DNA of 64,000 nt from Lachnospiraceae bacterium (GTDB lineage Bacteria; Bacillota; Clostridia; Lachnospirales; Lachnospiraceae): the NCBI GenBank assembly GCA_016282915.1, contig JAEELW010000036.1, forward strand, positions 1 through 64,000. Direction: 5' to 3'. How positions within the stretch are numbered: position 1 is the first letter of the stretch; the number at the start of each line of letters is the position of its first letter. Under the pieces are notes generated by a model. That model had not been told where the DNA came from. It saw only the letters and a list, made by a program, of their open reading frames with translations, and did not search any database. The position numbers were made by a program, and so were the translations under genes. Of this stretch, positions 41,272 through 47,028 are shown in pieces.

Positions 41272-41327
41272 GAGCATTGCGGTCTGCCGTGCGGCAGGGC
41301 CGTAATGCATTTTTTTGGGAGGAAAAG

Positions 41328-42272
41328 ATGAACAATCCTTTTGACAGAAAAGTTGTGGATACGGTACCGAAGTATCCCATCGGGAAGTATGTGCGCATCG
41401 CGATCATCGCCGTGATCCTGATCATCCTGGGTTACAGCTCGTTCTATAAAGTGACCGAGCAGCAGAACGCGGTAGTAACGATGTTCGGGAAGGTGATCCG
41501 CACCGATACCGCAGGTCTGTATTTCAAGATCCCGCTGATCCAGCAGGCGCATATCGTGGATGTGACGACCCACGGAACGGGTGTCGGCTATACCATCAGC
41601 ACCGAAGGACAGAATATCGCCGATCCCGGCAACGGTATCATGATCACCTCGGATTTCAACCTTCTGGATATCGATTTCTATCTGGAATACCGTGTTTCCG
41701 ATCCGGTAGCCTATCTCTACAGCTCCGACAACCCGGAGGAGATACTGAAAAACATCGCGCTCTCCAGCGTCCGTTCGGTCGTGGCGGATTACACCGTTGA
41801 TGAAGCAATGACCACCGCCAAGGGGCAGATCCAGGCGGAGGTGAAGGAGGATATGCTGCGGGAGCTCAATGAGCATAATATCGGCCTGACCGTGGTGAAC
41901 ATCACGGTACAGGACAGCGAACCGCCCACGGATACCATCAAACAGGCCTTTAAAGCCGTGGAAACGGCCAAGCAGGGAGCCGAGACCGCGCGGAACAACG
42001 CCCGGGCTTATCAGAACGAAAAGCTTCCCGGTGCCGAGGCGGACGCAGACAAGGTGGTACAGAATGCGGAAGCGGACAAGGCGGCCAGGATCGCCGAGGC
42101 CGAAGGCCAGGTGGTGCGTTTCAATGAAATGTACGAGCAGTATAAGCTGTATCCCTATATCACGAAGAAACGTCTCTTCTATGAGACCATGGAAGATCTT
42201 CTGCCCGGGCTGAAGGTGATCATCACCGACGGACATACGGAGACCATGCTGCCGCTGGAGAAATTCCAGTAA
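41328..42272 (+). CDS. hflK: FtsH protease modulator HflK (SPFH/stomatin family)
   Basis: 314 residues. One N-terminal membrane helix (YVRIAIIAVILIILGYSSFY), an SPFH domain (TEQQNAVVTMFGKVIRTDTAGLYFKIPL) and a charged coiled coil (about 215-275). With HflC it forms a membrane ring that limits FtsH proteolysis. ATG 41328 has GGGAGG 5 bases upstream; the track start 41277 overlaps the promoter start region. hflC follows after 27 bases. Confidence 0.92.
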   Translation: MNNPFDRKVVDTVPKYPIGKYVRIAIIAVILIILGYSSFYKVTEQQNAVVTMFGKVIRTDTAGLYFKIPLIQQAHIVDVTTHGTGVGYTISTEGQNIADPGNGIMITSDFNLLDIDFYLEYRVSDPVAYLYSSDNPEEILKNIALSSVRSVVADYTVDEAMTTAKGQIQAEVKEDMLRELNEHNIGLTVVNITVQDSEPPTDTIKQAFKAVETAKQGAETARNNARAYQNEKLPGAEADADKVVQNAEADKAARIAEAEGQVVRFNEMYEQYKLYPYITKKRLFYETMEDLLPGLKVIITDGHTETMLPLEKFQ

Positions 42273-42299
42273 GAGACGGAAAGGTAAAGGGAGAAAGAG

Positions 42300-43256
42300 A
42301 TGAAGAAAATGAAGATAAAAAAATCACTGATCATACTGATCGTAGTGCTGGTACTCGGACTGGTGGTCTTCGGTGCCTCCGTATATACCGTGGATTACAA
42401 TGATGTGGTGATCGTAAAGGAATTCGGACGTATCGTAAAACTGGAATCGGAGCCGGGCCTGCATTTCAAGGTGCCCTTCATCCAGGACACGCTGGCGATC
42501 TTTGACGGAAGCCGTATCTACGATATCCCGCAGAGTGATGTCATCACAAGGGATAAAAAGTCCATGATCGCGGACGACTACGTGATCTGGACCGTGGAGG
42601 ATGTGGTGAAGTATTACCAGACACTGGGCGGAGCGAGCGCCAGGGCGGAAGAACGAATCGATGCGGCGGTCTACAATGCGACCAAGAATACGATCTCTTC
42701 CATGACCCAGGAAGAGGTGATCGCGGCCCGCGGGATCACGCTGACCAACTTGATCACGGCGGAAGCCAATACCGATATGACGGGCTATGGCATCCGTATC
42801 CTTACTGCCGAGATCAAGGCTCTGGATCTGCCCGAGGATAATAAGGAAGCTGTCTACGAGCGCATGATCTCGGAACGCGGCAATATCGCTGCGGGTTATA
42901 CCGCAAAGGGTGAAGCCGAGGCACAGAAGATCCGCAACGAGACGGATAAAAATGTGACCATTACCCTTGCGAACGCAAAGAAGCAGGCGGAGACCCTGCT
43001 GGCGGAAGGCGAAGCGGAATACATGCGCATACTCTCGGAAGCCTATAACGATCAGGATAAGGCGGATTTTTACAATTTTCTCCGCAGTCTGGATGCACTC
43101 AGGGAATCGCTGAAAGGGGAGGACAAGACCCTGATCCTGGACCGGCAGTCGGAACTGGCGCGTATCCTTTACGGCGATCTGATCGACGAAGCGGAAACGC
43201 CGGAGCAGCGGACGATGCCTGTGGAAGAGGCAGTGGAAAAGGGAGAAGATGAGTAA
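42300..43256 (+). CDS. hflC: FtsH protease modulator HflC
   Basis: 318 residues. N-terminal helix (SLIILIVVLVLGLVVFGASVY) and SPFH domain (VIVKEFGRIVKLESEPGLHFKVPFIQ), ERMISERGNIAAGYTAKGEAEAQKI coiled coil typical of HflC, and an acidic tail. Partner of the preceding HflK; FtsH itself is outside the window. The next gene overlaps its end by 8 bases. Confidence 0.93.
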   Translation: MKKMKIKKSLIILIVVLVLGLVVFGASVYTVDYNDVVIVKEFGRIVKLESEPGLHFKVPFIQDTLAIFDGSRIYDIPQSDVITRDKKSMIADDYVIWTVEDVVKYYQTLGGASARAEERIDAAVYNATKNTISSMTQEEVIAARGITLTNLITAEANTDMTGYGIRILTAEIKALDLPEDNKEAVYERMISERGNIAAGYTAKGEAEAQKIRNETDKNVTITLANAKKQAETLLAEGEAEYMRILSEAYNDQDKADFYNFLRSLDALRESLKGEDKTLILDRQSELARILYGDLIDEAETPEQRTMPVEEAVEKGEDE

Positions 43257-44700: not shown

Positions 44701-44730
44701 ATTTCAGAAGCTGAAAAGCGGGAGGTTTTT

Positions 44731-46143
44731 ATGGGTGGATTTTTCGGAACGGCATTAAAGGAAGACTGTGTATTTGATCTGTATTTCGGTACGGATTATC
44801 ATTCCCATCTGGGAACCAGACGTGCGGGCATGGTGGTCTACGGGGAGAACGGTTTTAACCGTGCGATCCACAATATCGAGAGCGCACCCTTCCGGACCAA
44901 GTTTGACAAGGATACTCACGAGATGAAGGGTAATCTGGGGATCGGCTGCATCTCCGATTATGAGCCCCAGCCGCTGATCGTGCGTTCCCATCACGGGACC
45001 TATGCCATCACTACTGTGGGAAAGATCAACAATGCCGATGCACTCTGTGAGCGTATCATCAAAAACGGCAGCCACTTCATGGAGCTTTCCGGCGGTACCA
45101 TCAACGCCACGGAGCTGGTGGCCACGCTCATCAACCAGAAAGACAATATCATTGAAGGGATACAGTATGCCCAGTCCGAGATCGACGGCTCCATGTCCAT
45201 GATGCTGCTCACCTCAAAGGCGGTGTACTGTGCCCGTGACCGCCTGGGCCGTACGCCCGTGATCATCGGGAAAAAGGAGGAGGGCTACTGCGCCTCCTTT
45301 GAATCCTTTGCTTATCAGAATCTGGGATACAGCACCTTGCGGGAGCTGGGGCCCGGAGAGATCGTGGCCATGACACCCGAAGCGGTGCAGACCCTGGCAA
45401 AGCCCGGATCAAAGATGCGGATCTGTACCTTCCTCTGGGTCTATTACGGTTATCCTTCCTCGGTATACGAGGGAGTGTCGGTGGAAAAGATGCGCTACAA
45501 CTGCGGCGCAAGGATGGCGGCGCGGGATATGGAGAGAAAGACCGGCGCGGATATCGTAGCCGGAGTGCCGGATTCCGGTACCGCCCATGCGGTAGGCTAT
45601 GCGAATGCCTCGGGCATACCTTTCTCCAGGCCCTTCGTGAAATATACGCCCACCTGGCCGCGTTCCTTCATGCCCACGATCCAGTCCAAGAGAAACCTGA
45701 TCGCGCGCATGAAGCTTCTGCCGGTCCATGAGCTGATCGACGGGCACAGCATCCTTCTGATCGACGATTCCATCGTGCGGGGAACACAGCTTCGGGAGAC
45801 CACGGAGTTCCTGTACAAGAGCGGTGCCGAGGCCGTGCATGTGCGTCCGGCCTGCCCGCCCATCATGTTTGGCTGTAAGTACATCAATTTTTCTCGTTCC
45901 AATTCCGAGATGGAGCTGATCGCGCGCCGTGTGATCAGCCGCGAGGAAGGGGATGAGGTGAGCCGCGATATCCTGGAGGATTATGCCAATCCCGATTCCG
46001 ACCGCTACCACCGTATGCTGGAGGAGATCCGCAGGGAGATGGGCTTTACGAGTCTGGCCTTTAACCGTCTGGACGATATGATCGAGGCCGTAGGCATCGA
46101 AAAGGATAAGCTCTGCACCTACTGCTGGGACGGCAGGGAGTAA
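44731..46143 (+). CDS. amidophosphoribosyltransferase (PurF) paralogue lacking glutaminase residues
   Basis: 470 residues, full-length PurF architecture. The N-terminus reads MGGFFG where PurF has Met-Cys-Gly, so the catalytic Cys is missing. The RYxTxG region is CISDYEP and the HNGN region is TVGKINN, so the glutamine site is gone. The PRPP loop is intact (LLIDDSIVRGTQL, about residue 343). Cysteines matching the Bacillus-type 4Fe-4S ligands remain (RICTFLWVYY, MFGCKY, LCTYC). It may use free ammonia, a partner amidase, or do something else. GGGAGG precedes ATG 44731. Confidence 0.88.
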   Translation: MGGFFGTALKEDCVFDLYFGTDYHSHLGTRRAGMVVYGENGFNRAIHNIESAPFRTKFDKDTHEMKGNLGIGCISDYEPQPLIVRSHHGTYAITTVGKINNADALCERIIKNGSHFMELSGGTINATELVATLINQKDNIIEGIQYAQSEIDGSMSMMLLTSKAVYCARDRLGRTPVIIGKKEEGYCASFESFAYQNLGYSTLRELGPGEIVAMTPEAVQTLAKPGSKMRICTFLWVYYGYPSSVYEGVSVEKMRYNCGARMAARDMERKTGADIVAGVPDSGTAHAVGYANASGIPFSRPFVKYTPTWPRSFMPTIQSKRNLIARMKLLPVHELIDGHSILLIDDSIVRGTQLRETTEFLYKSGAEAVHVRPACPPIMFGCKYINFSRSNSEMELIARRVISREEGDEVSRDILEDYANPDSDRYHRMLEEIRREMGFTSLAFNRLDDMIEAVGIEKDKLCTYCWDGRE

Positions 46144-46161: not shown

Positions 46162-47028
46162 ATGCTTAAGGACCGGCGGATAAAAGGTGTACTCTGTATT
46201 CTTGCGGCGGCGCTGGGCTTTTCACTGATGACCTTTTTTGTAAGGCTGTCCGGCGATGTGCCCACGATGCAGAAGGCTTTTTTCCGGAATGCCGTGGCTG
46301 CGGTCATCACCATCATCCCGTTGCTGCGCTCGAAAGAGGGCTTCCGCATCAAAAAAGGCTGCTTTTCCGATATTGCCTTCCGCTGCATCTTCGGGACCAG
46401 CGGTCTGATCGCGAATTTTTACGCCATTGACCGTCTGGGCATCGCCGATGCGAATCTGCTGAACAAGCTTTCGCCTTTTTTTGCGATACTGCTGTCGATC
46501 CCCATCCTGAAGGAGAAGCCCTCCCTGACGGATATGATCGCCACGATAGCGGCTTTTACCGGCGCGCTGTTCATCATCCGGCCGGGATCCAATCTGCAGC
46601 TCGTCCCGGCCCTGATCGGTCTCTACGGAGGTTTTGGCGCCGGTACGGCTTATGTCTTTGTACGTAAGCTCGGAGGAAAGGGGGAGCGTACGCCGGTCAT
46701 TGTTCTGTGCTTTTCACTCTTTTCCTGCATGGTCACGGCGCCGGCACTGATCCTGGATTTTCATCCCATGAGTGCACAGCAGTGGCTGTTCCTGATCCTG
46801 GCCGGCTGCGGTGCGGCACTAGGGCAGTTTTCCATTACGACGGCTTACCGTTTTGCTCCGGCAAAGGAGATCTCGGTTTTTGATTATACACAGGTGATCT
46901 TTGCGGCGATCCTGGGAATGCTCTTCCTCGGGGAGCTTCCCGTGACACTCAGTATCATCGGATACGTTATCGTGATCGGGACCGCAGTCGTGCGCTGGCA
47001 GATCACGATGAGGAAACAGGAAGCTTAG
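46162..47028 (+). CDS. EamA-family (DMT superfamily) transporter
   Basis: 288 residues, ten membrane helices in two EamA repeats. GFSLMTFFVRLSGDVPTMQKAFFRN starts the first repeat; the second ends FDYTQVIFAAILGMLFLGELP, a typical signature. It exports or imports a small metabolite across the membrane; substrate unknown. It follows the PurF-like gene after 18 bases and may share its transcript. Confidence 0.9.
   Translation: MLKDRRIKGVLCILAAALGFSLMTFFVRLSGDVPTMQKAFFRNAVAAVITIIPLLRSKEGFRIKKGCFSDIAFRCIFGTSGLIANFYAIDRLGIADANLLNKLSPFFAILLSIPILKEKPSLTDMIATIAAFTGALFIIRPGSNLQLVPALIGLYGGFGAGTAYVFVRKLGGKGERTPVIVLCFSLFSCMVTAPALILDFHPMSAQQWLFLILAGCGAALGQFSITTAYRFAPAKEISVFDYTQVIFAAILGMLFLGELPVTLSIIGYVIVIGTAVVRWQITMRKQEA

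Follow-up and report, generated by a model that had tools for sequence, protein, structure and literature searches.

The locus and its PurF homologue

The window, a stretch of 64,000 nucleotides from a Lachnospiraceae bacterium, encodes a PurF homologue of 470 amino acids (P0001) on the forward strand at positions 44731-46143. PurF is the first enzyme of purine synthesis, and its product, phosphoribosylamine (PRA), is consumed by PurD; the textbook nitrogen donor of this committed step is glutamine. The protein begins with MGGFFG and is referred to here as the Cys-less form. The features of the locus are as follows.

44720..44725, + strand: ribosome-binding site GGGAGG, 5 bases 5' of the ATG, read from the sequence; supports the ATG at 44731
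44731..46143, + strand: Cys-less PurF homologue P0001, 470 aa; TIGR01134 194 bits; nearest solved structures B. subtilis PurF 1ao0/1gph
44731..44739, + strand: Met-Gly-Gly start, versus the N-terminal Cys-Gly of mature canonical PurF; C1 in 29/29 canonical and 0/181 Cys-less sequences
44731..45405, + strand: Ntn-type glutaminase domain, residues 1-225, predicted to be catalytically dismantled, still conserved (PF13537 38.8 bits; column entropy)
45013..45033, + strand: TVGKINN in place of the HNGN oxyanion/substrate motif; N104 replaced by V, I, T or L in 181/181, G105 kept in 92%
45424..45426, + strand: predicted Fe-S ligand Cys232, 181/181
45562..45579, + strand: pyrophosphate loop GVPDSG, intact; P280, D281, S282 and G283 invariant
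45640..45684, + strand: PRPP flexible loop KYTPTWPRSFMPTIQ; canonical K, Y, R, F and Q kept, new invariant insert P-T-W
45760..45786, + strand: PRPP loop IDDSIVRGT, intact; the canonical T after the loop is Q353 in 181/181
45874..45876, + strand: predicted Fe-S ligand Cys382, 181/181
46114..46125, + strand: predicted Fe-S ligands Cys462 and Cys465 (CTYC), 181/181

P0001 is PurF-like along its full length (match to B. subtilis PurF 1ao0, E = 1.7e-45) and approximately 32% identical to PurF. A profile search with the PurF equivalog TIGR01134 gave 194 bits, which is under the curated cut-off of 350. The AlphaFold2 model (pLDDT 83, pTM 0.80) has 1ao0 as its best PDB match (TM 0.81), and thus the overall fold is predicted to be that of PurF. 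Upstream of the ATG at 44731 there are ten in-frame sense codons (ISEAEKREVF) and then a stop, with no Cys codon that could serve after processing, as the first-pass annotation had stated. Sequencing error at the N-terminus, which that annotation had named as grounds for rejecting its reading, and a wrong start are both excluded because the Cys-less start occurs throughout the family, in 181 relatives that carry the same changes.

The former glutaminase half

Catalytic residues were compared between 181 Cys-less sequences, including some from near-identical genomes, and 29 canonical sequences from Clostridia, using canonical mature numbering. Gone from all 181 are C1 (present in 29/29 canonical sequences), R28, the entire H73-R75-Y76-T78-G80 block, N104 of HNGN and D129 of SDTE. 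The glutaminase features of TIGR01134 (N-terminal Cys, RYxTxG, HNGN and SDTE) are therefore missing, with C1, the RY block, N104 and D129 each found in 0/181. The first-pass annotation had read MGGFFG in place of the Met-Cys-Gly of PurF and TVGKINN in place of HNGN, and the losses of C1 and N104 that underlie these readings extend to all 181 sequences. It had also read CISDYEP as a rewritten RYxTxG; the block is indeed gone, but by deletion, and CISDYEP is the adjoining next sequence. In this half of the Cys-less alignment, no invariant or nearly invariant column is a Cys, so there is no shifted nucleophile. A catalytic Cys in a shifted position, which the first-pass annotation had named as refuting its reading, is thus not seen.

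The domain is nonetheless conserved. Mean column entropy across it is 1.09 in the Cys-less clade versus 1.36 in canonical PurF. New invariant residues are found in both halves of the Cys-less proteins, and those of the glutaminase half are Y23-H24-S25-H26-L27, R55, I74-S75-D76 and N125.

PRPP site and Fe-S ligands

The PRPP loop, the pyrophosphate loop and the flexible-loop catalytic residues of TIGR01134 are present in 181/181 sequences, with single positions down to 99%. Retained are DDSIVRGT, VPDSG, K311, Y314, R317, F319, R327 and K334 (one position at 99%). The four cysteines of the B. subtilis-type Fe-S site (C242, C388, C438 and C441, corresponding to C232, C382, C462 and C465 in the window protein) are kept in 181/181, and an Fe-S cluster is predicted from these ligands. 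The earlier claims of an intact PRPP loop IDDSIVRGT and of Cys at the four Bacillus 4Fe-4S positions thus extend to the 181 sequences. Residues 307-314 of the flexible loop were modelled by AlphaFold2 at pLDDT below 50, as expected because the loop orders only upon substrate binding. The Cys-less clade also has invariant changes in the PRPP site: the T after RGT is Q353, P307-T308-W309 is inserted, and R300-P301 is fixed. These residues could reflect a different acceptor.

Distribution and phylogeny

Of 150 sampled genera of Lachnospiraceae, the family of the window, 101 have Cys-less orthologues, as do about 100 of the 343 genomes sampled from the class Clostridia (nearly 30%). The form also occurs in 8/149 genomes of the phylum that contains Erysipelotrichaceae NK3D112, and in Bacteroidales and Peptoclostridium records. 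Full-length Cys-less proteins of the class score at least 538 bits against the window protein and canonical PurFs no more than about 190, and therefore the two forms are discrete. A tree built by a quick method from 72 Cys-less sequences and 29 canonical ones groups all Cys-less forms together, set off by a branch with SH-aLRT support of 100, in line with the suggestion that they make a clade. With midpoint rooting, each side of the root has a branch of 2.3 substitutions per site.

A recent, decaying duplicate is ruled out: the clade is long separated and lacks signs of decay, and its glutaminase half varies no more than that of canonical PurF. Neither is this a phage or plasmid trait. The phage set yielded one close match, which proved to be a bacterial purine operon, and matches among plasmids were to a megaplasmid and to circular Bacteroidales contigs. 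The phage-set entry (L185; MT836108.1, GenBank "Bacteriophage sp.") is probably a misassigned contig. Members of the Cys-less family can carry the plain annotation "amidophosphoribosyltransferase" in sequence records.

The literature covered, with subscription papers and preprints outside its scope, contains a crenarchaeal precedent and no description of the present bacterial family. The family is large and apparently undescribed so far; what is new here is the clade in bacteria, how widely it occurs, and the many cases of a genome with only the Cys-less form.

Gene neighbourhoods

In a distant subgroup the Cys-less gene (X) occupies the slot of purF in the purine operon, purE-(purC)-X-purM-(purN)-...-purD-purL. 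This order was found in about 14 of 40 distant loci, from many families, with L145, L150, L157, L163, L171 and L172 as examples (purE-(purC)-X-purM-(purN)-(purO)-AICAR transformylase-purD-purL). At two loci, L160 and L185, the purF slot holds a tandem pair, one gene Cys-less and the other canonical. Within the family of the window, one genome (G022) has canonical purF-purB-X-purA, with purB and purA confirmed by Pfam. Genomic context that points to a PurF-like role in purine synthesis is present as the operon slot and, as described below, in genomes where the Cys-less form is the sole PurF beside purD and purM, and is absent at the window locus.

No purine genes surround the window's gene, most Lachnospiraceae members lack conserved neighbours, and Rfam matches at the window locus were at chance level only, providing no riboswitch. 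The expectation of constant neighbours is borne out in the purine-operon subgroup and a few families, but not around the gene of the window.

Other neighbours were observed. Seven loci (L145, L150, L154, L157, L163, L171 and L172) mostly have a separate purO-type IMP cyclohydrolase beside an AICAR transformylase-like gene, as judged by eye. This arrangement is best known from archaea. In Peptoclostridium and two Bacteroidales records (L182, L183 and L184), pepT lies directly 3' of the Cys-less gene, followed in the Bacteroidales by gcvT; pepT is thus a neighbour common to more than one phylum. In family f50 (L142, L148, L174 and L176) the Cys-less gene adjoins a Mg-chelatase-like competence gene (comM type); of the four genera, at least three have an ispH-like gene (730-813 aa) on the opposite flank. 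Just upstream in the window (41277-43256) are two adjoining membrane-protease-regulator-like genes (HflK/HflC type by eye). A DMT/EamA-type transporter (46162-47028) begins 19 bases 3' of the Cys-less gene and recurs downstream of it in a few close relatives.

Genomes with the Cys-less form as the only PurF

We chose 41 genomes whose sole PurF-like match is the Cys-less form, and added two isolates, Bacterium C-53 and Erysipelotrichaceae NK3D112. None of the 41 encodes a PurF over the TIGR01134 cut-off, and 39 encode PurD and 39 PurM over the respective cut-offs (41/43 for each with the two isolates). Among 20 control Clostridia genomes without any PurF-like match, PurD was over cut-off in 0/20 (Fisher p = 4e-14 for PurD presence, with phylogeny ignored). 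One of the Cys-less-only genomes (G359) is a single contig of 99% completeness, and 13 genera of the window's own family are represented. PurD consumes phosphoribosylamine, and therefore Cys-less-only genomes with PurD contain some source of PRA. Both forms occur together in 86 of the 101 sampled carrier genera of Lachnospiraceae.

Proposed function

We consider it likely that the Cys-less protein is an ammonia-dependent 5-phosphoribosylamine synthase, with NH3 as the predicted acceptor and PRA as the predicted product. This is expected from the loss of the glutaminase and retention of the PRPP site, since an E. coli PurF in which Cys1 is substituted can no longer use glutamine but does accept ammonia (Mei and Zalkin 1989, cited in PMC3261824). 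The PurF lineage would have given up its glutaminase, and the Cys-less enzyme would pass free NH3 directly onto PRPP. As it is the sole PurF left in dozens of anaerobic bacteria, these probably make purines from free ammonia. We infer that the stand-alone member in the window acts like the operonic ones. The first-pass annotation had left three options: an ammonia-dependent enzyme, a regulator or a new phosphoribosyltransferase. The genomic context, namely the operon slot and the 43 sole-PurF genomes (41 with purD), argues strongly for the first.

The conserved residues of the former glutaminase half would be more than a purely vestigial domain needs, and this counts against the preferred reading. 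The domain may now be a scaffold, a channel wall or a ligand sensor. Its strong conservation could also indicate a docking or channel module, such that a PRA synthase is fed by a separate glutaminase in trans (PurQ- or PdxT-like) or by a neighbouring ammonia-releasing enzyme rather than by bulk ammonia. The two Bacteroidales records with pepT and gcvT beside the gene would fit such feeding, as GcvT releases ammonia. However, no extra glutaminase gene recurs beside the Cys-less gene in purine operons, and most neighbourhoods of the window's subgroup have nothing in common, which makes this alternative improbable.

We regard as similarly improbable a phosphoribosyltransferase that uses PRPP with another nucleophile, the stand-alone members, including that of the window, acting outside purine synthesis. 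The clade-wide invariant changes near the PRPP site (Q353, P307-T308-W309 and R300) are compatible with this, as is the presence of canonical PurF in 86/101 carrier genera. However, the same residues are invariant in stand-alone and operonic members, and the Cys-less form replaces PurF both in the purine operon and in the 43 genomes (41 with purD), 13 genera of the window's family among them.

Very unlikely is a regulatory pseudoenzyme, a sensor of PRPP or nucleotides that modulates canonical PurF, perhaps via mixed oligomers. Most carriers do have a canonical PurF, and the genes are in tandem in L160 and L185. However, in at least 43 genomes there is no canonical PurF on which it could act, so the general role cannot be pure regulation of that enzyme, and a sensor would not need the invariant PRPP-site and flexible-loop residues. 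It is scarcely credible that PRA arises non-enzymatically from ribose-5-phosphate and ammonia in genomes without canonical PurF, with the Cys-less gene incidental: such formation is documented in enterobacteria, but covers thiamine and not purine needs, as purF mutants require purines (PMC5348995), and it would leave unexplained both the Cys-less gene in the purF slot and the absence of purD from genomes without either PurF.

Canonical purF and nitrogen supply

The search for a second, canonical purF that the first-pass annotation had proposed found one in the window genome (G000:C75:11093-12433, 518.9 bits), with a complete glutaminase site. It lies in an ammonium/nitrogen-scavenging cluster (L251; G000:C75:4093-19433) with the order glutamine synthetase III - Amt::PII fusion - purF - gltB - gltD, based on Pfam. 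The encoded PurF groups with PurFs of other families and not with those of other sampled Lachnospiraceae.

Of 35 sampled genomes that have the two forms, 12 place canonical purF in a nitrogen cluster, 15 place it in a purine cluster and 8 have it at other sites. Of 23 genomes with canonical PurF alone, 22 have the gene in a purine cluster; the remaining one (G052) is an assembly of 84% completeness. Nitrogen-cluster placement is thus found in 12/35 versus 1/23 genomes (p = 0.009 on raw counts). Independent pairs gave no significance for this association; most cases are from one clade and represent few independent events, and therefore we treat the nitrogen-cluster link as a hypothesis only.

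The location of canonical purF suggests that the glutamine-dependent form serves under nitrogen scarcity. The two forms suggest a division of labour by nitrogen supply, although the link is phylogenetically weak. In genomes with both, the Cys-less enzyme would operate at high ammonia supply and canonical PurF under nitrogen shortage, on the model of AsnA and AsnB. A fuller scenario, which we offer tentatively, is that the ammonia-only clade is the sole purine entry in many anaerobic Firmicutes and that, where both forms are present, the glutamine-dependent PurF has moved to a GS-GOGAT-Amt nitrogen-starvation cluster in several lineages, so that the donor switches with ammonia supply.

Comparison with known systems

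If the proposed function is correct, about two thirds of sampled Lachnospiraceae genera (101/150) and nearly 30% of Clostridia genomes would have an ammonia-dependent route into purines, and some would have only that route. Metabolic reconstructions of gut and rumen anaerobes would change, and apparent purF gaps in purD-bearing genomes would be explained.

The Cys-less form shares with PurF (TIGR01134; B. subtilis 1ao0/1gph, Fe-S type) the predicted whole-length fold (TM 0.81), the PRPP and pyrophosphate loops, K, Y, R, F and Q of the flexible loop, the four Fe-S cysteines and, in the distant subgroup, the operon position. It differs in lacking the N-terminal Cys, RYxTxG, HNGN, D129 and the propeptide, in its identity (~32%) and in its score (194 bits against a cut-off of 350). 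Asparagine is made by ammonia-dependent AsnA and glutamine-dependent AsnB, which are unrelated to each other. The proposed similarity is the formation of one product from ammonia or glutamine depending on nitrogen supply; both forms here, unlike AsnA and AsnB, are homologues (of PurF).

The Cys1 mutant of E. coli PurF (Mei and Zalkin 1989, cited in PMC3261824) does not use glutamine and accepts ammonia, properties that are predicted for the Cys-less form. It is a laboratory mutant in which the other glutaminase residues are intact, whereas the Cys-less form is a natural family. The closest precedent is the crenarchaeal PurF', which is Cys-less, always accompanied by canonical PurF, and suggested by its authors, as an untested hypothesis, to depend on ammonia (Brown et al., 2011; PMC3261824). 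Based on the published description, PurF' resembles the bacterial clade in being PurF-like, in lacking the N-terminal Cys and in its link to purine genes. However, every Crenarchaeon in that study has canonical PurF, whereas at least 43 genomes here have the Cys-less form only (canonical PurF in 0/43). Because such strains exist, the 2011 hypothesis for Cys-less PurF can now be given a clean test.
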